Shown: one piece after another, positions 5,934 to 53,461 of the stretch
How positions within the stretch are numbered: position 1 is the first letter of the stretch
Layout of the letters: each line of letters begins with the position of its first letter
Source: Brevinematales bacterium
GTDB lineage: Bacteria; Spirochaetota; Brevinematia; Brevinematales; GWF1-51-8
NCBI GenBank assembly: GCA_020059465.1
Contig: JAGVBZ010000025.1
Location: 66,913-130,912, forward strand
Length of the DNA stretch: 64,000 nt
Direction: 5' to 3'
The notes under the pieces: generated by a model
Database searches by the model: none
Seen by the model: only the letters and a program-made list of their open reading frames with translations
Told to the model about the DNA's origin: nothing
Position numbers and translations under genes: made by a program

Positions 5934-6923
5934 TTATCTGAACAATCCCTGAAGAACCGGCAGATAGTTTATCAGCATATAAATATATAATCCTGCCGAA
6001 CCTATCCCCATAATCAGGTTGATTACCCTGACCGGAGGCGCAAAAAGTGTCAGCACACGTATGGGAATAATCCCGAAGAAGAACAACGGTACAATCGAAA
6101 ACTCCGGCCCGGTCTTCCTGACCGATTCCTGTATCCCCCATGTTATCATGATCTCCTGAATTATAAAAAGTCCGCCGATCAATAACGCCGACTCCAGCAG
6201 GTGTTTCAGGATTTCGCGGATTGTTCTCCAACGGGGACGATCGTCTTTTATCATCGCCTCGAATATTTTCTGGTAAACCGGCCACATAAGCACATATGAC
6301 ACAATTAGCAGAGCAATGAGGACGATCAGGACGATATACCCCGCGGTGCCCTGAAACTGCTCGGATACAAACCTGTTGATGAGATTATGGATAACAGGAT
6401 GGACTTTCAGGACAATGAATAGGCCCAGAACCGCCGAAAAGGTAAGCGCGATGATACCGGTAAATACTTTTTTTATCTCGCTGTCCTCGATATGCCCGTA
6501 AACCCCTCCGATAATCCCTGTAATTGGAAGGAAAAATAAATTACAGAGTAGAAATGTGCTTTCGCCGATAAACCGGAACGCGACCTTACCGAATATCGAG
6601 AGAATACTCCCGACAGAATACACTGAAATAATAATAAAGAGGATCAGAATTATTTTCCGGGGGAACGATTTTTCCCTGGTCAGCGTCTGATAACGGCGGT
6701 TCAGTTGTCCGTACACCATCGTAACGGTAAAGCACACGAGGAATAACAGGGGCAGCAGCACCCCCGGTGTCAAAATATCGATGATTGTGTTCCCCGGCGG
6801 GATTACCGTCTGGCGGAAAAACAAGGCTCCGGCGATTAAAAGGATATCGAACACAAATTCGTCGATATTGATTATCCCCTTCGGTTTTAATTCTTCTTCC
6901 GGTGGCGCGTCTAAAAATTCCAT
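5934..6923 (-). CDS. Membrane protein of a four-member tandem paralogous family, copy 4
   Basis: 329-residue polytopic protein, the last gene of a run of four related minus-strand genes. It has about eight hydrophobic helices. The family signature is visible in diverged form: INIDEFVFDILLIAGALFF near the N-terminus, PPGNTIIDILTPG after it, and GIIPIRVLTLFAPPVRVIN near the C-terminus. It has an extra 20-residue hydrophilic start (MEFLDAPPEEELKPKG) that the other copies lack, and it is the most divergent of the four. Its stop codon touches that of arsC on the other strand. The family is not one I recognise; nothing points to an enzyme or a transported substrate. Confidence 0.72.
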   Translation of the reverse strand: MEFLDAPPEEELKPKGIINIDEFVFDILLIAGALFFRQTVIPPGNTIIDILTPGVLLPLLFLVCFTVTMVYGQLNRRYQTLTREKSFPRKIILILFIIISVYSVGSILSIFGKVAFRFIGESTFLLCNLFFLPITGIIGGVYGHIEDSEIKKVFTGIIALTFSAVLGLFIVLKVHPVIHNLINRFVSEQFQGTAGYIVLIVLIALLIVSYVLMWPVYQKIFEAMIKDDRPRWRTIREILKHLLESALLIGGLFIIQEIMITWGIQESVRKTGPEFSIVPLFFFGIIPIRVLTLFAPPVRVINLIMGIGSAGLYIYMLINYLPVLQGLFR

Positions 6924-6938
6924 ACATTACCGCCTTCG

Positions 6939-7838
6939 TTAATTTTTAAGAGCCGAGAAAAGGGTGATGAAATAAACCGACAGCGACGCAAGCCCCACCC
7001 CGGTATTGATAATCCGGTACGGCGGCGCGGCGGCCATCAGAACCCGCACGGGAATAACCCCATACAGGATGAGGGTAAAGACCGAAATAAAGAAATCTTT
7101 ACCCCCGCTCTTTCCCATCGCGACGACCATAATCTCCTGCCAGAACCCGAGCATCAGCGCGACTGTGAGAGGAAACAGTATCCCTAAGACGATAATCCTG
7201 ACGATACCCATACCCTTCGACCCTTCCTCGAACAGAGTTTTTTTCAGCCGCCCTATCAGCACGATGCCCACGCCATAGACAATCAGCCCCACGATGAGTG
7301 TGACCGCGCCGAGAAACCAGTTATTCATTTCTTCGCCGATATACAGCATCAGGTAAATCAATCCAAACAGGACGGGTATCGAAAGTATCGCCATCATAAC
7401 CCCGCACCCGGAACCCTTGTCCTTATCGAACCCAATGAACGCGGCCCCTATAATCAGGAATAGTCCCGCGAGGAACGGGATCATCATATTATCCGATGAA
7501 ATCAGTTCGAATTTGTACATGTTTGCCGGAACCCCGATATAGAGGAAAAGTATGGTCAATGATATCACCACGTACAGGAGTTTTTTTATTCCGGTATGTT
7601 TCTCGAATAAAGGTTCGTACCTCAGGAAAAGATTACCTAAAAAAAACGTCACAAAGAAATCGATTAACAGGGTAAGCATGACCGCGGTTGTCGGGGTCAG
7701 AATATCGACAACAGTCTTCCCGGCGGGAATAACAAGAGCGTGGAATAAAATCGCGAATAGGGCGAGCGTAATATCGAATACCAATTCGTCGATATTGACA
7801 TATTTGGCAAGAGTCCCCGTAAACGTTTTCCATGACAT
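6939..7838 (-). CDS. Membrane protein of a four-member tandem paralogous family, copy 3
   Basis: 299-residue polytopic protein with about eight hydrophobic segments. It begins MSWKTFTGTLAKYVNIDELV, followed by PAGKTVVDILTP, and ends with PVRVLMAAAPPYRIINTGVG and a last helix. The motif MLGFWQEI near residue 222 recurs in copies 1 and 2. It starts one base from the stop codon of copy 2 and ends 15 bases before copy 4, so all four are very likely translated from one transcript. The long hydrophobic run carries few charged residues apart from one loop near 205-215. Function unknown. Confidence 0.74.
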   Translation of the reverse strand: MSWKTFTGTLAKYVNIDELVFDITLALFAILFHALVIPAGKTVVDILTPTTAVMLTLLIDFFVTFFLGNLFLRYEPLFEKHTGIKKLLYVVISLTILFLYIGVPANMYKFELISSDNMMIPFLAGLFLIIGAAFIGFDKDKGSGCGVMMAILSIPVLFGLIYLMLYIGEEMNNWFLGAVTLIVGLIVYGVGIVLIGRLKKTLFEEGSKGMGIVRIIVLGILFPLTVALMLGFWQEIMVVAMGKSGGKDFFISVFTLILYGVIPVRVLMAAAPPYRIINTGVGLASLSVYFITLFSALKN

Positions 7839-7839
7839 T

Positions 7840-8760
7840 TTATTTTACCATTCCTATCAGTAATTCGATATACGATCCGAGGGTGATAATATACAGCGCG
7901 AGTGATCCGAGCCCGATCCCGGTATTGATAACACGGTACGGCGGCGCGGCGGCCATCACTATCCGCAGAGGAATTATCCCGCTGAGCAGAAGGCTGAGCA
8001 GTACGCGGGGTACTATATCCCCGGTATTCATGCCGGCGGTCTGTCCGATGATCGATATCTCCTGCCAGAAACCCAGTATCAGTACGATGATCACCGGGAG
8101 GATTATCCCGAATAGTATCGTTCGCAGAATACCCGCGGCCTTCGATTCTTTATTAAAAAGTTTCTTCGCTAATTTCAGCCCGCCGAGCAGGAGAAGCGTA
8201 TAAACCCCCGCGCCGCCCAATACTATACCTGTTCCGAGGAGCCAGCCGAATAACTCTGCAAAATAGAAAAACAGCAGGAATAACGAGATGCCGGTTATCA
8301 GGGAAAACATAACGGCAGTGTTCCTGCATCCTTCCTCGTTCATATCGGAATACCCGAACATGTTCCCCGCAGGCATCAGGAATACTCCCGCGATATACGG
8401 GATGAACATATTTTCGGGCGCGAGCAGTCCCAATCCGCGCAGATTCTCGTTCACCGCGATATACAGCACTCCCGCAGTCGCGAATAATATGAAAGTGACA
8501 ATGCCGACCGGGAGCGGATGCTTCTTTTTATACGGCTGGAAACGGAGATAAAGCGCGCCAAGCAGAACAGGTACGAAAAAATAGATGAGACAAACAGTAA
8601 CTATCGCGGATACCGGGTTTAAAATCCCGACGACCGTCTTTCCCGGAGGGACAATCACTCCGCGCAGGAACAGGGCGAGCGCCAGAAGGGTAATATCGTA
8701 GACCAATTCGTCCAGATTAACGTATTTCGCTATTGTCCCGAAAAATTCTTTTCGCGTCAT
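7840..8760 (-). CDS. Membrane protein of a four-member tandem paralogous family, copy 2
   Basis: 306-residue polytopic protein with the family layout: an N-terminal amphipathic start (MTRKEFFGTIAKYVNLDELV), a first helix ending LFLRGVIVPPGKT, a central loop with short polar stretches, GFWQEISIIG near residue 228, and a C-terminal APPYRVINTGIG motif before the last helix. The start codon overlaps the stop codon of copy 1 by one base. The first 35 residues are almost identical to copy 1 over YVNLDELVYDITLLALALFL, which indicates a fairly recent duplication or strong constraint. I do not recognise the family. Confidence 0.74.
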   Translation of the reverse strand: MTRKEFFGTIAKYVNLDELVYDITLLALALFLRGVIVPPGKTVVGILNPVSAIVTVCLIYFFVPVLLGALYLRFQPYKKKHPLPVGIVTFILFATAGVLYIAVNENLRGLGLLAPENMFIPYIAGVFLMPAGNMFGYSDMNEEGCRNTAVMFSLITGISLFLLFFYFAELFGWLLGTGIVLGGAGVYTLLLLGGLKLAKKLFNKESKAAGILRTILFGIILPVIIVLILGFWQEISIIGQTAGMNTGDIVPRVLLSLLLSGIIPLRIVMAAAPPYRVINTGIGLGSLALYIITLGSYIELLIGMVK

Positions 8761-9686
8761 TAAAGTATCCCCGGAATAGAGGTTATATTTTTTATCAATA
8801 TAATGATATAGACTGTAAATGACACTGCCCCCATTCCGGTATTCACAATCCGGTACGGCGGGGCAAGCGCCATCAGCACCCTTACGCTGATGACAGTTAA
8901 AAACAGTACCCCGGATAGGATGATGCTGATCACATCGGTGCTTTGCAATACCCCGATCATTCCGGACGCGGATATCTCCTGCCAGAATCCCAACATCAGC
9001 GCGGTCATCAGCGGAATAATGATATTAAACAGTATGAAGATAATGGCATTACCCGCCTTATTCTTTCCGTCGAATATCTTATCCGAAACATAGACATTCA
9101 GTCTAAAAAGGAGCACAAGAACAGCCCCGCCCGCCGCGAATATTCCCAAAGCGGTCAGTATGCTCTCAGGGTTATCCTCGCATTTATAGAAGCTGATGAA
9201 AAAATAAATAATAATCAGCGACAGCATGAACACACCTATCGACAACGAGCATCCGCCCTTTTCTTTTTTCGCGGAACTCCCGACTATCCCGCTGGCAACC
9301 ATACATAGCCCTCCGAAAACAAGCGCCATCGAAAAAACCGGGTCCGCATCGGGGAATGCCCTGACAAAAATAATGGTCACCGCGATAATCATCACAATCA
9401 GCGTAACCATCGATAATGCGACTACCTTGTTCTGTGCGGATTCGCGTTCCTTCAGCGCTTCTATATAACGGGATTGTATAAACCCCATATAATACGAAAC
9501 TGAAAAAAATACCGCCAGAAGGAGGATAGTGCCCGAAATGGGATTCAGCACATCGACGATAGTCATTCCCTGCGGAACGATCAGCCCGCGCAGGAACAGG
9601 GCAAGCGCCAGCAGGGTAATATCGTAGACCAATTCGTCGAGGTTCACATACTTCGCGAAAGCCGATGTGAATGTTTTCAGTGTCAT
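8760..9686 (-). CDS. Membrane protein of a four-member tandem paralogous family, copy 1
   Basis: 308-residue polytopic protein and first gene of the four-gene run. Eight or so hydrophobic segments are separated by short loops; one loop near residues 135-145 is lysine/glycine-rich (SSAKKEKGGCS). Conserved family motifs are YVNLDELVYDITLLALALFL near residue 12, PQGMTIVDVLNP near 37, GFWQEIS near 228 and APPYRIVNTGMG near 277. The invariant motifs lie mainly at helix ends near the two termini, so the termini may form the functional core. No paralogue carries a recognisable soluble domain. Confidence 0.74.
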   Translation of the reverse strand: MTLKTFTSAFAKYVNLDELVYDITLLALALFLRGLIVPQGMTIVDVLNPISGTILLLAVFFSVSYYMGFIQSRYIEALKERESAQNKVVALSMVTLIVMIIAVTIIFVRAFPDADPVFSMALVFGGLCMVASGIVGSSAKKEKGGCSLSIGVFMLSLIIIYFFISFYKCEDNPESILTALGIFAAGGAVLVLLFRLNVYVSDKIFDGKNKAGNAIIFILFNIIIPLMTALMLGFWQEISASGMIGVLQSTDVISIILSGVLFLTVISVRVLMALAPPYRIVNTGMGAVSFTVYIIILIKNITSIPGIL

Positions 9687-11837: not shown

Positions 11838-11939
11838 TTCCCTTTCTCCTGTCGTTTGAAATATTGTAGTATGGAAAGGAAAAGAGCGCAAGTCTGGTGC
11901 TGGGACTATTTGATATGAATTGCCCCGATACGCGGAGGG

Positions 11940-12054
11940 CATCTCGATACGCTCCTCGCTTTGCTCGGTGCTACTCGATGGCCGGGGAGAATCCGGAAAC
12001 CGAGTACCCCGACTTTTGGGTGGGGTGTACCGAGGTTTCCGAGTACGCGATGCC
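11940..12054. repeat. Dispersed palindromic repeat A, copy 1
   Basis: A degenerate repeat that starts CATCTCGATACGC, passes CTACTCGATG, then GGAAACCGAGTA, and closes with the inverted partner CGAGGTTTCCGAGTACG and ATGCC. Outer and inner parts can pair into a cruciform or hairpin. Related copies are at 12929-13038, 13322-13415 and 50844-50887. It lies between galT and the AT-rich gene at 12129. Confidence 0.8.
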
Positions 12055-12128
12055 ATTTTGATTCTCTATAATTTGCGGGGATTATCGTATAGTGATAGAA
12101 TGTATAAAATAGGTTTTTGGATGGAAAA

Positions 12129-12920
12129 ATGCGAACTGGGTTTTTTATCATAATAATCTTATTATGCTCTGTTATTGTTTTAATGATACTAAAATATTTT
12201 CATATTCTTCCCGATTGTAGCATCGATTGGAATGCACTTACTGCAATCGGAACGATATTTATGGCAATAGGTACTTTTATTGTACTATTTTTTCAAAAAA
12301 AGATTGTCGATTGGATGTATCGCCCAGTTTTAGAGTTAAAATTTGAGATGAAAGAACCATATTGCTTACAATTCTCAAATTCTTTCTACTTTCGCCTTGC
12401 AATTTCAAATGAAAAAGGTAAAGGTTCTGCAAATGAGGTTCAGATTCAAATTCAATCTGAACAGAATCAAGATTATCAAATTATTCCACGAAATTTAGAT
12501 TGGGTTGATAACTCAAAACAATTTTCGTTGGATTTATTACATCAAGGTATTTCACGCTTTATTGGTTTAGGACATATTTTTTCTCCGCAAGTTATTACAC
12601 AGCTTAGTGATACTGATCCTGAGAAGCCATTTTTCTCTCAAGAAATAGATTCTGTGGTTGATAAAAACGGACCTAAAAAAGAAGAGTGCTATTTTTCATT
12701 AGACACAATTGTACGACCTACTAATAAAGATTATATTCTTTCAAAAAATAAATATGAATTTATTATTACTATCATTGCGCAAAATTTCAAACCTATAGAC
12801 TATTTAGTTATTTTACATTTTGGAGGCAAGTGGAGTATAAATAAAAAAATAATGCTTAATAAATCAAAAGCAGATTTTGAGAATAATCATGGAGTTTGGA
12901 TAGAAATAAAGAAGATTTAG
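12129..12920 (+). CDS. AT-rich hypothetical protein with two N-terminal membrane helices
   Basis: 263-residue protein. Two hydrophobic helices at residues 3-22 (FFIIIILLCSVIVLMILKYF) and about 35-57 (ALTAIGTIFMAIGTFIVLFF) are followed by a 200-residue soluble domain rich in beta-forming residues. The pattern is that of an inner-membrane-anchored cytoplasmic domain. The coding sequence is far more AT-rich than its neighbours and is bounded on both sides by repeat A, which suggests acquisition. TTGCGG (12073) and TAGAAT (12096) with a 17-base gap could be its promoter. An in-frame TTG at 12117 is the alternative start. I do not recognise the family; proteins of this shape are common in accessory and defence regions. 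Confidence 0.68.
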   Translation: MRTGFFIIIILLCSVIVLMILKYFHILPDCSIDWNALTAIGTIFMAIGTFIVLFFQKKIVDWMYRPVLELKFEMKEPYCLQFSNSFYFRLAISNEKGKGSANEVQIQIQSEQNQDYQIIPRNLDWVDNSKQFSLDLLHQGISRFIGLGHIFSPQVITQLSDTDPEKPFFSQEIDSVVDKNGPKKEECYFSLDTIVRPTNKDYILSKNKYEFIITIIAQNFKPIDYLVILHFGGKWSINKKIMLNKSKADFENNHGVWIEIKKI

Positions 12921-12928
12921 AATATTGG

Positions 12929-13038
12929 CATCTCGATACGCATCTCACTTCGTTCGGCGCTACTCGATGTCCGGGGTCTAAACGGAAACCGAGTATCCCG
13001 CAGGGGCGTATCGAGGTTTCCGAAGGAGCGCCCATGCC
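12929..13038. repeat. Dispersed palindromic repeat A, copy 2
   Basis: TCTCGATACGC at 12931-12941 pairs with GCGTATCGAGG at 13006-13016, and GGAAACC (12984-12990) with GGTTTCC (13015-13021). The repeat runs into the start of the GIY-YIG gene: its tail supplies the AAGGAG ribosome binding site at 13023-13028 and the ATGCC of the start codon at 13034. Confidence 0.85.
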
Positions 13039-13318
13039 GTATATGTATATCCTTCTTTGCAATGACGGCACTTTCTATACCGGAAGTACGTGGGACTTGG
13101 AGAAACGTCTATCCGAACATAACGCGGGCGAAGGCGCAAATTACACGTCGAAACGACTGCCGGTAAAACTGATATACTTCGAGGAATACTCACGAATTGA
13201 GGATGCGTTCCATAGGGAGAAGCAAATCCAAAATTGGAGTCATTCTAAAAAAGAAGCGTTGATTGCAGGCGATTTTGAAAAACTAATGCGGAAGTCGAAA
13301 AAGGATTTTAGGAAATGA
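13034..13318 (+). CDS. Small GIY-YIG nuclease domain protein, first of two paralogues
   Basis: 94-residue stand-alone GIY-YIG domain of the UvrC-N-like YhbQ/URI group. The signature is MYILLCNDGTFYTGSTWDL near residues 4-22, followed by a conserved KRLSEHN segment and a FEEYSRIEDAFHREKQIQNW helix. The catalytic tyrosines, the arginine of KRL and the glutamate of EDAFHRE appear present, so a metal-dependent nuclease is plausible. An open frame reads upstream through repeat A, but 13034 has AAGGAG five bases before it. It is flanked by repeat A on both sides (12929-13038 and 13322-13415). A close paralogue, also repeat-flanked, is at 52792-53097. Confidence 0.88.
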   Translation: MPYMYILLCNDGTFYTGSTWDLEKRLSEHNAGEGANYTSKRLPVKLIYFEEYSRIEDAFHREKQIQNWSHSKKEALIAGDFEKLMRKSKKDFRK

Positions 13319-13321
13319 CCT

Positions 13322-13415
13322 CATCTCGATACACAATTCGACATCTCGAAATGCACCACACTTCGTTCGATGCTACTCGATGTCCGAATCTCTACCGGAA
13401 ACCGAGTGTCCCGTG
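13322..13415. repeat. Dispersed palindromic repeat A, copy 3
   Basis: Starts CATCTCGATAC three bases after the GIY-YIG stop codon, includes CTTCGTTCGATGCTACTCGA and GGAAACCGAGTG, and lacks the final arm seen in copies 1 and 2. It separates the GIY-YIG gene from the end of the GGDEF gene on the other strand, where it may also act as a terminator hairpin. Confidence 0.75.
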
Positions 13416-27224: not shown

Positions 27225-27445
27225 CACACTCCGGCATCCAGTTCAGTAACAACCGGGACAAGCGCTCACACTTCGGCAGGCTCAGTGTGACAGACGCCCC
27301 GTCATCCCGAGCTTGTCGAGGGACAAGCGCTCTGTGTGACAGACACCCCGTCATCCCGAGCTTGTCGAGGGACAAATGCCGCTCACACTTCGGCATCCCG
27401 TTCAGCAATCGGGACAAGCGCTCAGTGTGACACACATCCCGCCAT
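27225..27445. repeat. Cluster of dispersed repeats of the CCGTCATCCCGAGCTTGTCG type
   Basis: Two near-identical units beginning CCCCGTCATCCCGAGCTTGT start at 27297 and 27346, 49 bases apart. They are flanked by further degenerate copies containing GGGACAAGCGCTC and CACTTCGGCA. The cluster fills most of the gap between ilvE and the ABC ATPase gene. No gene is seen here; the open frames are by-products of the repeats. Confidence 0.8.
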
Positions 27446-27469
27446 ATCGGGAATAGCGTGCGCAGCACA

Positions 27470-52604: not shown

Positions 52605-52717
52605 AAAAACTCCTAAATCTAATAAGAAAAATAATACACATTATAGATATCGTCAAATATTTTATACATAAATAATATTCTACTTGCTTCCCTATTTCCC
52701 CGTGCTTTAAAGCGATA

Positions 52718-52790
52718 CGGTCGCCGAGCGAAGCCGAGGCGCGGTTGTTGAGCGCGCCCTGAGCGGAGCCGAAGGGTTGCCGAAATGACC
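52718..52790. repeat. Dispersed repeat B, left copy, with related half units
   Basis: CGGTCGCCGAGCGAAGCCGA followed by GGCGC at 52718-52742 recurs with one mismatch in 25 bases at 53255-53279. Related half units follow up to 52790 (GAGCGGAGCCGAAGGGTTGC). The repeat lies directly downstream of the second GIY-YIG gene. Confidence 0.78.
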
Positions 52791-52791
52791 G

Positions 52792-53097
52792 CTATTCCCT
52801 CGTATTTGATGCTTTAGTACTATTCCTACACACCGCTAGCTGATGGATAAGTTTTTCATCTCCTTCCATCAATGCGTCTTTTTTCGCATGACTCCATCCC
52901 TGTACCTGCTTTTCACGGTTAAAGGCATCTTCGATGCGTAAAAATTCTTCATAATACACCAAATTTACAGGGATGCGTTTCGATGTGTGATTCGCACCTT
53001 CCCCGGCGTTATGTTCCTTCAACCGTTTTTCTAAATCCCAAGTACTTCCGGTATAATATGTCCCATCACTGCACTGTAGAATATACATATACGGCAT
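52792..53097 (-). CDS. Small GIY-YIG nuclease domain protein, second paralogue
   Basis: 101-residue stand-alone GIY-YIG domain, closely similar to the protein at 13034-13318: both begin MPYMYIL and share DGT-YTGSTWDLEKRL, EHNAGEGAN-TSKR and IEDAF-REKQ. The last 15 residues (VCRNSTKASNTRE and before) differ and seem to run into repeat-derived sequence. Many codons differ from the first paralogue only at third positions, so the protein has been conserved since the two separated. AAGGA precedes the ATG. Repeat B lies on both sides (52718 and 53255), with a further hairpin repeat at 53139. Confidence 0.87.
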   Translation of the reverse strand: MPYMYILQCSDGTYYTGSTWDLEKRLKEHNAGEGANHTSKRIPVNLVYYEEFLRIEDAFNREKQVQGWSHAKKDALMEGDEKLIHQLAVCRNSTKASNTRE

Positions 53098-53138: not shown

Positions 53139-53189
53139 GGACACTTCGACTACGCTCAGTGTCCGTTCGGCTACGCTCAGTGTCCGTCC
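53139..53189. repeat. Tandem hairpin repeat upstream of the second GIY-YIG gene
   Basis: GGACACT (53139-53145) pairs with AGTGTCC (53158-53164) around CGACTACGCTC; a second degenerate unit, TTCGGCTACGCTCAGTGTCC, follows directly. The unit resembles the TTCG-GCTCAGTGTG element in the cluster at 27225-27445. Confidence 0.7.
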
Positions 53190-53254
53190 AGTTTCACTTA
53201 ACACCGATTGCTTTCTATTGTAAAACTATATAATATGACTATATGTATTCGTTC

Positions 53255-53281
53255 CGGTCGCCGAGCGGAGCCGAGGCGCCG
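53255..53281. repeat. Dispersed repeat B, right copy
   Basis: CGGTCGCCGAGCGGAGCCGA followed by GGCGC, same orientation as the copy at 52718. The 364-base gap 53098-53461 holds this repeat and the hairpin repeat at 53139; the rest is AT-rich and shows no gene. Confidence 0.78.
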
Positions 53282-53461
53282 TCCGCGTGATATCCTTCAT
53301 TCCACATCAGGATAACTCATTCGGGAACAATTAGGCGAGCCAAGCAATATTCAACCTTCGACAGGAGATAAATTTTACTGCTTTTTTGAATTTCCCCTTT
53401 TTTTTCAGTGTTGTCTACCCCATTCATCCTTGAGTTATTTATAAACTTTTGTTGTTATTTT

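Follow-up and report, generated by a model that had tools for sequence, protein, structure and literature searches.

Small standalone GIY-YIG nucleases and the hairpin repeats that bracket them: a candidate enzyme-repeat pair in Brevinematales and other bacteria

The window analyzed here is a 64,000-nucleotide stretch of a contig of a Brevinematales bacterium. Between positions 11938 and 13413 it holds three copies of a palindromic repeat, repeat A, that alternate with two genes in the order repeat, AT-rich ORF, repeat, GIY-YIG ORF, repeat (Table 1). The original prediction described this alternation of repeats with an AT-rich membrane protein gene and a GIY-YIG gene, and we find it as described: the 74-nt core of repeat A starts at 11938, 12927 and 13340, with 73-82% identity to the reference copy. 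It also expected repeat A to be tied to the nuclease gene, and a blastn search of the organism's own 3.19-Mb spirochaete genome returned these three copies only, all at the GIY-YIG gene.

Table 1. Coordinates of genes and repeats in the window
Feature	Position	Strand	Remarks
Repeat A copy 1	11938..12042	.	105 nt, two hairpins: first CATCTCGATACGC..GCTACTCGATG, inverted second CCGAGTAC..GTACCGAGG
AT-rich gene	12129..12920	+	263 aa, 29% GC, no Pfam family, likely passenger
Repeat A copy 2	12927..13022	.	96 nt, both hairpins complete
AAGGAG ribosome-binding site of the 94-aa nuclease gene	13023..13028	+	from sequence
GIY-YIG nuclease gene	13034..13318	+	94 aa, tail class T4 (KSKKDFRK)
Repeat A copy 3	13320..13413	.	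short partial copy, then first hairpin at 13340-13384
T1-type hairpins (CGAGCGAAGCCGAG, TGAGCGGAGCCGAA)	52713..52782	.	one side of second nuclease gene
Second GIY-YIG gene	52792..53097	-	101 aa, tail class T1 (LAVCRNSTK)
T1-type hairpins (TGAGCGTAGTCGAA, TGAGCGTAGCCGAA, CGAGCGGAGCCGAG)	53140..53282	.	other side of second nuclease gene

A full copy of repeat A is a doublet of two oppositely oriented hairpins, CATCTCGATACGC..GCTACTCGATG followed by CCGAGTA..GTATCGAGG. Copies 1 and 2 have both hairpins; in copy 3 the second is reduced to its left half and the right half is missing. The middle copy had been thought to supply the ribosome-binding site and start codon of the nuclease gene. This part does not hold: the AAGGAG and the ATG come right after the foot of the copy 2 hairpin at 13022, abutting the repeat, and the sequence 3' of copy 1 is unlike that 3' of copy 2. 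Nor does the membrane protein gene appear to be a component of the system, as had been supposed. The order galT-[repeat-GIY-repeat]-GGDEF is common to G000, G006 and G007, and the AT-rich gene is present only in this genome; because it is absent from the syntenic loci of the congeners G006 and G007, it is a passenger caught between two copies of repeat A. Its GC content is 29% versus 49% for the window, its product has a hydrophobic N-terminus with a membrane segment (judged by eye), and no Pfam family was found for it. Elsewhere in the window, at 6844-9686, similar blocks recur every ~920 bases, where paralogous genes for a membrane protein stand in tandem.

The 94-aa protein matches the GIY-YIG family PF01541 at 2e-18. 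It has the catalytic Tyr, Arg and Glu of GIY-YIG enzymes, and Y5, Y15, R25, H29 and E62 are invariant. With dN/dS of ~0.11 relative to the G007 ortholog, the nuclease gene is under purifying selection. In the AlphaFold2 model of the enzyme (pLDDT 94) a helix at residues 81-88 runs into a low-confidence tail, and the closest solved folds are those of UPF0213 (1zg2, 1ywl) and Slx1. PMC6902002 describes Slx1 as a cutter of branched DNA, and by analogy only, a hairpin or cruciform substrate would fit such an activity. The protein has a single domain for which no association with NUMOD, an intron or an intein was found; a grpIintron_endo match was weak and below threshold. Among the 22 non-UvrC genes of the class whose flanks were read, palindromes of locus-specific sequence bracket every locus with the clade marker REKQ(I/V)(Q/K)xWSHxKK, and they are absent from the other clades there (those with polyphosphate kinase neighbours and those of the KREIQIKSYP type); nor do hairpins bracket the standalone Treponema-like proteins. 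A Spirochaetia record (L099) and a genome of the same phylum (L164) are alike in protein tail and flanks.

The window contains a second GIY-YIG gene, missed by the original prediction, that is bracketed by a palindrome family other than repeat A. The two paralogs are 78% identical over the domain, and one combines a T4 tail with repeat A while the other combines a T1 tail with T1 hairpins. The genome has six GIY-YIG genes, UvrC among them, and 38 T1 cores (reversed-pattern control, 0). Thus, the T1 repeats beside the second nuclease gene recur elsewhere in the genome, unlike repeat A, whose three copies flank only. Another T1 hairpin pair is found immediately upstream of uvrC, which also encodes a GIY-YIG protein (G000:C33:10040-10090, L295). 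This pair (C33:10062) escapes the strict stem rule and is probably there by chance, other uvrC loci having none. At 27272-27466 of the window, T2-type palindromes (CCGAGCTTGTCGAGG) are clustered as an array of direct repeats with no adjacent GIY-YIG gene.

With a profile of the clade (A1) we picked 80 loci by protein alone from named genomes of Bacteroidota, Chloroflexota, Cyanobacteriota, Actinomycetota, Pseudomonadota, Fibrobacterota, Ignavibacteriota and other phyla. Flank-to-flank alignment at a score of at least 25 likewise pointed to enrichment, with 45% versus 8%, values affected by low complexity, and therefore a hairpin model was used instead. The common one-strand form, among the 34 of the 80 loci that were read, is stem-YGAG-loop-CGAR-stem', which in the hairpin amounts to two adjacent G.A mismatches in a Py-GA-Pu context; this context favours sheared G.A pairs. 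When the stem is required to have 4 bp or more and near is defined as within ~500 bp of the gene, such a hairpin is near the gene in 73/80 relatives, at a density of 2.15 per kb versus 0.08 per kb elsewhere in the same loci (26x). Seven control forms, perfect stems and other mismatches included, occur near the gene at 0-2 loci each and one of them at 6. No such hairpin was found at 22 UvrC loci under the strict stem rule or at the six loci with the RAYT domain Y1_Tnp that were fetched from relatives. The presence of a core drops with distance from the clade, from 27/28 proteins at 118 bits or more to 9/22 at 80-118 and 1/34 below 80. A GIY-YIG gene of Methylobacterium bullatum (L331) has a long-loop YGAG/CGAR hairpin (TGAGGTGCC..GGCCTCGAAGG) in its flanks, possibly a further class.

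In 60 distinct T1 elements the stems vary while pairing is kept, with 85% of cells paired and 140 double changes versus 55 after shuffling. Covariation of the stems is 0.595 versus 0.201 in shuffled sets (reached in 0/500), and slid controls give at most 0.174. What is preserved is thus the hairpin rather than its sequence. No constant foot tag was found in these 60 elements. Neighbouring cores are inverted in 233 cases versus direct in 135, as in REPINs, and hairpins with the same core lie in both orientations and on both sides of the gene. DNA folding energies favour neither strand; taken alone, repeat A's first hairpin folds poorly.

Which hairpin accompanies a given enzyme can be predicted from the C-terminal tail of the protein. 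Four rules, drafted from the 80 loci and written before new loci were fetched, link tail 'C.N.[ST][HN]' to core GAGCGNAGYCGA (T1), tail '(L/Y/F)(S/A)(K/R)(N/S/C)' to core GAGCYTGYCGA (T2), tail 'AYRD' to core GAGGNNCTCGA (T3) and tail 'KKx(W/F)' to core GAGT(A/G)..GTATCGA, that of repeat A (T4). In independent loci drawn from 374 genomes of the same phylum, the tail class predicts the core at 28/28 loci that combine a T1-T4 tail with a core; the regular expressions of the rules were given their final form only once the test flanks had been seen. The rule also agrees at 13/13 loci of the organism's own class, which had already been read when the rules were written, to give 41/41 outside the training set together with the test loci. 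Agreement overall is 111/113, four Treponema-like proteins that matched the T4 expression accidentally and have no repeats having been taken out by hand; permutation gives a mean of 36 and a maximum of 53 in 10,000.

Proteins with 85-90% identity in the catalytic domain but different tails go with different cores, and proteins that are 37% identical but share a tail go with one core. Mean domain identity is 0.66 for the same tail versus 0.64 for different tails. On these patterns, the C-terminal tail behaves as an exchangeable part. On the best catalytic-domain tree, which is poorly resolved, tail class has to change 42 times and core class 43 times; in the few independent pairs with good support (1-2 per class) there is agreement in almost all pairings. 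Two trivial origins of the code were considered. That the tail is a translation of the flanking repeat is ruled out by the tail codons, which overlap the repeat core in 0/113 cases. That the code reflects protein phylogeny was rejected on the grounds that pairs with different tails reach 90% domain identity, with the reservation that the domain tree is weak (72 columns).

One hairpin doublet lies in frame within a methyltransferase gene of this genome; the homologs in G007 and G008 are without it, and at this site G005 has another insert and G006 a Y1_Tnp domain. The latter (L303/L065, G006:C43:6633-7757) is an in-frame RAYT-like domain inside an Eco57I-like DNA methyltransferase gene. Intergenic T1 copies are polymorphic between congeners, but comparison of the dispersed copies gave neither a target duplication nor a clean empty site, the intergenic regions being too diverged. 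Five genomes (G039, G178, G182, G190 and G036) have 39-110 T1 cores and no detected gene of the associated clade, and in G039, G178 and G190 the GIY-YIG genes are of the UvrC type only. In such genomes the repeats can have outlived the gene, another enzyme can act on them, or the gene can have been lost in draft assembly, which is possible because some orphan repeats lie at contig ends. No alternative gene was convincingly shared near the repeats at 20 sites of G039, G178 and G008.

Beyond the clade, the partner repeat has a different form. YGAG..CGAR-type hairpins are absent at 15/17 spirochaete loci that encode GIY-YIG proteins with an 'NPxWxDL' tail, a sister clade also present in Proteobacteria. 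When this clade was sampled from 14 plasmid-collection records (some of them chromosomes or chromids), in a set that is small and not blind, 10/14 loci had palindromes around or beside the gene that carry a CGTC-like tag, start the stem with AT and in most cases end in a CCA tail. These palindromes number 37 near the genes (2.09 per kb) versus 30 far from them (0.16 per kb; 21 in Photobacterium), and no control tags were found near the genes in the same 14 records. They belong to the CGTC REPs defined by Di Nocera et al. 2013 (PMC3733652). CGTC REPs include the dRS3 element of Neisseria, have Azospirillum lipoferum and Sinorhizobium meliloti among their listed carriers and, according to the authors, seem to be without a dedicated transposase; GIY-YIG goes unmentioned in that paper (PMC3733652). 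The CGTC tag, the AT-first stem and the CCA tail, present beside the sister GIY-YIG clade, are lacking in repeat A. In Azospirillum lipoferum 4B a CGTC REP-GIY-REP unit splits the suf operon between sufB and sufC (L350, plasmid AZO_p3, 253890-256744). On plasmid p1 of Planktothrix agardhii (L346) an NPxWxDL-type GIY-YIG gene lies in a DISARM locus, between an MmeI-like gene and drmA, and no CGTC-type palindromes were found near it.

Combining the bracketing, the hairpin model, the tail-to-core code, the stem covariation, the purifying selection and the generality across phyla, all of which the sequences themselves show, we suggest with a probability of about three in four that repeat A and the GIY-YIG gene form an enzyme-repeat pair in which the hairpin is read by the tail of the protein, nicked and copied by repair. 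In this model, a small standalone Slx1-like GIY-YIG nuclease would recognise its own hairpin as folded single-stranded DNA or as an extruded cruciform. The hairpin's shape would come from its outer stem together with the tandem G.A mismatches, the short C-terminal tail would read the loop, and the enzyme would nick at or near the hairpin. Host repair or replication would then copy the repeats, and occasionally the repeat-gene-repeat unit, to other sites. Binding, the nicked strand and its site, repair-mediated copying and mobility are what we infer for the pair. We count the in-frame insertion in the methyltransferase gene, the Azospirillum REP-GIY-REP unit and the kept position between galT and GGDEF for it. 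Against it we count the orphan T1 cores, the missing clean empty site, the uninformative folding energies, the poorly resolved tree and the fact that a GIY-YIG nuclease alone cannot rejoin DNA.

It is unlikely, in our view, that the hairpins serve to regulate the nuclease gene or to insulate it, as terminators or in translational control, while the enzyme has an unrelated role in host repair. Some hairpins do abut a ribosome-binding site or come after a stop codon, and RNA versions of them could fold too; but hairpins that share a core are also scattered elsewhere in the genome, as the 38 T1 cores are, and they lie on both sides of the gene in both orientations. The core, moreover, tracks the protein tail, which cis regulation predicts only if the protein binds the hairpins.

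The tail-to-core code is likewise not expected if some other enzyme, for example a RAYT, spreads the repeats and the GIY-YIG gene is a passenger or a protected site among them. We consider this quite improbable, even though some T1-rich genomes have GIY-YIG genes of the UvrC type only and a congener has a Y1_Tnp domain in the methyltransferase gene where this genome has hairpins. Spread by a RAYT in particular was rejected: the organism's own genome has no match to Y1_Tnp (PF01797), and the Y1_Tnp loci of relatives are without these hairpins. A further reading is a solitary homing endonuclease, which would cut alleles that have no repeat, spread its gene in this way and leave the repeats as repair scars. 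Such an enzyme would share the GIY-YIG fold and could account for the Azospirillum gene between sufB and sufC and for a module syntenic across congeners. Homing enzymes, however, target an uninterrupted site instead of their own element, whereas the bracketing repeat here covaries with the tail, and intron, intein and NUMOD domain are all absent, so that we hold homing to be highly improbable.

Short palindromes rank with the most common repeats of bacterial genomes, and so far an enzyme is known for the GTAG class only. The pairing of nuclease and hairpin looks like an undescribed partnership and may drive repeats that have no known driver. We think it likely that standalone GIY-YIG nucleases constitute a second, RAYT-independent class of repeat-propagating enzymes, in which exchangeable tails read the loops, and that they explain several repeats including CGTC REPs/dRS3. 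If so, CGTC REPs/dRS3 and the YGAG/CGAR repeats would have a candidate driver, the recurrence of these repeats in unrelated phyla would be accounted for, and a small nuclease would be at hand whose hairpin specificity could perhaps be swapped via ~15 residues.

No paper linking GIY-YIG proteins to REPs, RAYTs, palindromic or dispersed repeats or the cores was found in a search that covered few subscription journals and no preprints, and palindromes go unmentioned in a 2006 survey of GIY-YIG proteins. The standalone Slx1-like and UPF0213 nucleases (YhbQ, COG2827) have the same fold and domain; the clade described here differs from them by the REKQxxxWS(H/R)xKK segment, a class-specific tail and bracketing hairpins. 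GIY-YIG homing endonucleases of the I-TevI type share the catalytic domain and possibly the spread of the gene, but the partner DNA here is a repeat instead of an uninterrupted target site, and there is no intron, intein or NUMOD. The likeness is closest in arrangement to REP/REPIN-RAYT systems (TnpAREP, 'REPtrons'), as the original prediction had anticipated with a GIY-YIG enzyme in place of the transposase and as the structurally related hairpins that bracket relatives in many phyla support: both have a single-copy enzyme gene, short flanking palindromes that are also dispersed, inverted doublets and conserved stem mismatches. The C-terminal tail of TnpAEc takes part in recognition (PMC8266576), a role that the tail-to-core code suggests for the tail here. 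The REPtron enzyme is a Y1 HUH transposase and the enzyme here a GIY-YIG nuclease. Unlike GTAG-tagged REPs, the T1-T3 cores are without a GTAG foot and the GTAG of repeat A is internal; the cores are of the form YGAG..CGAR, with CGTC only beside the sister clade. Without the transposase that defines the REP/RAYT family, the pair of GIY-YIG nuclease and hairpin is not a member of it, yet it would work like one.
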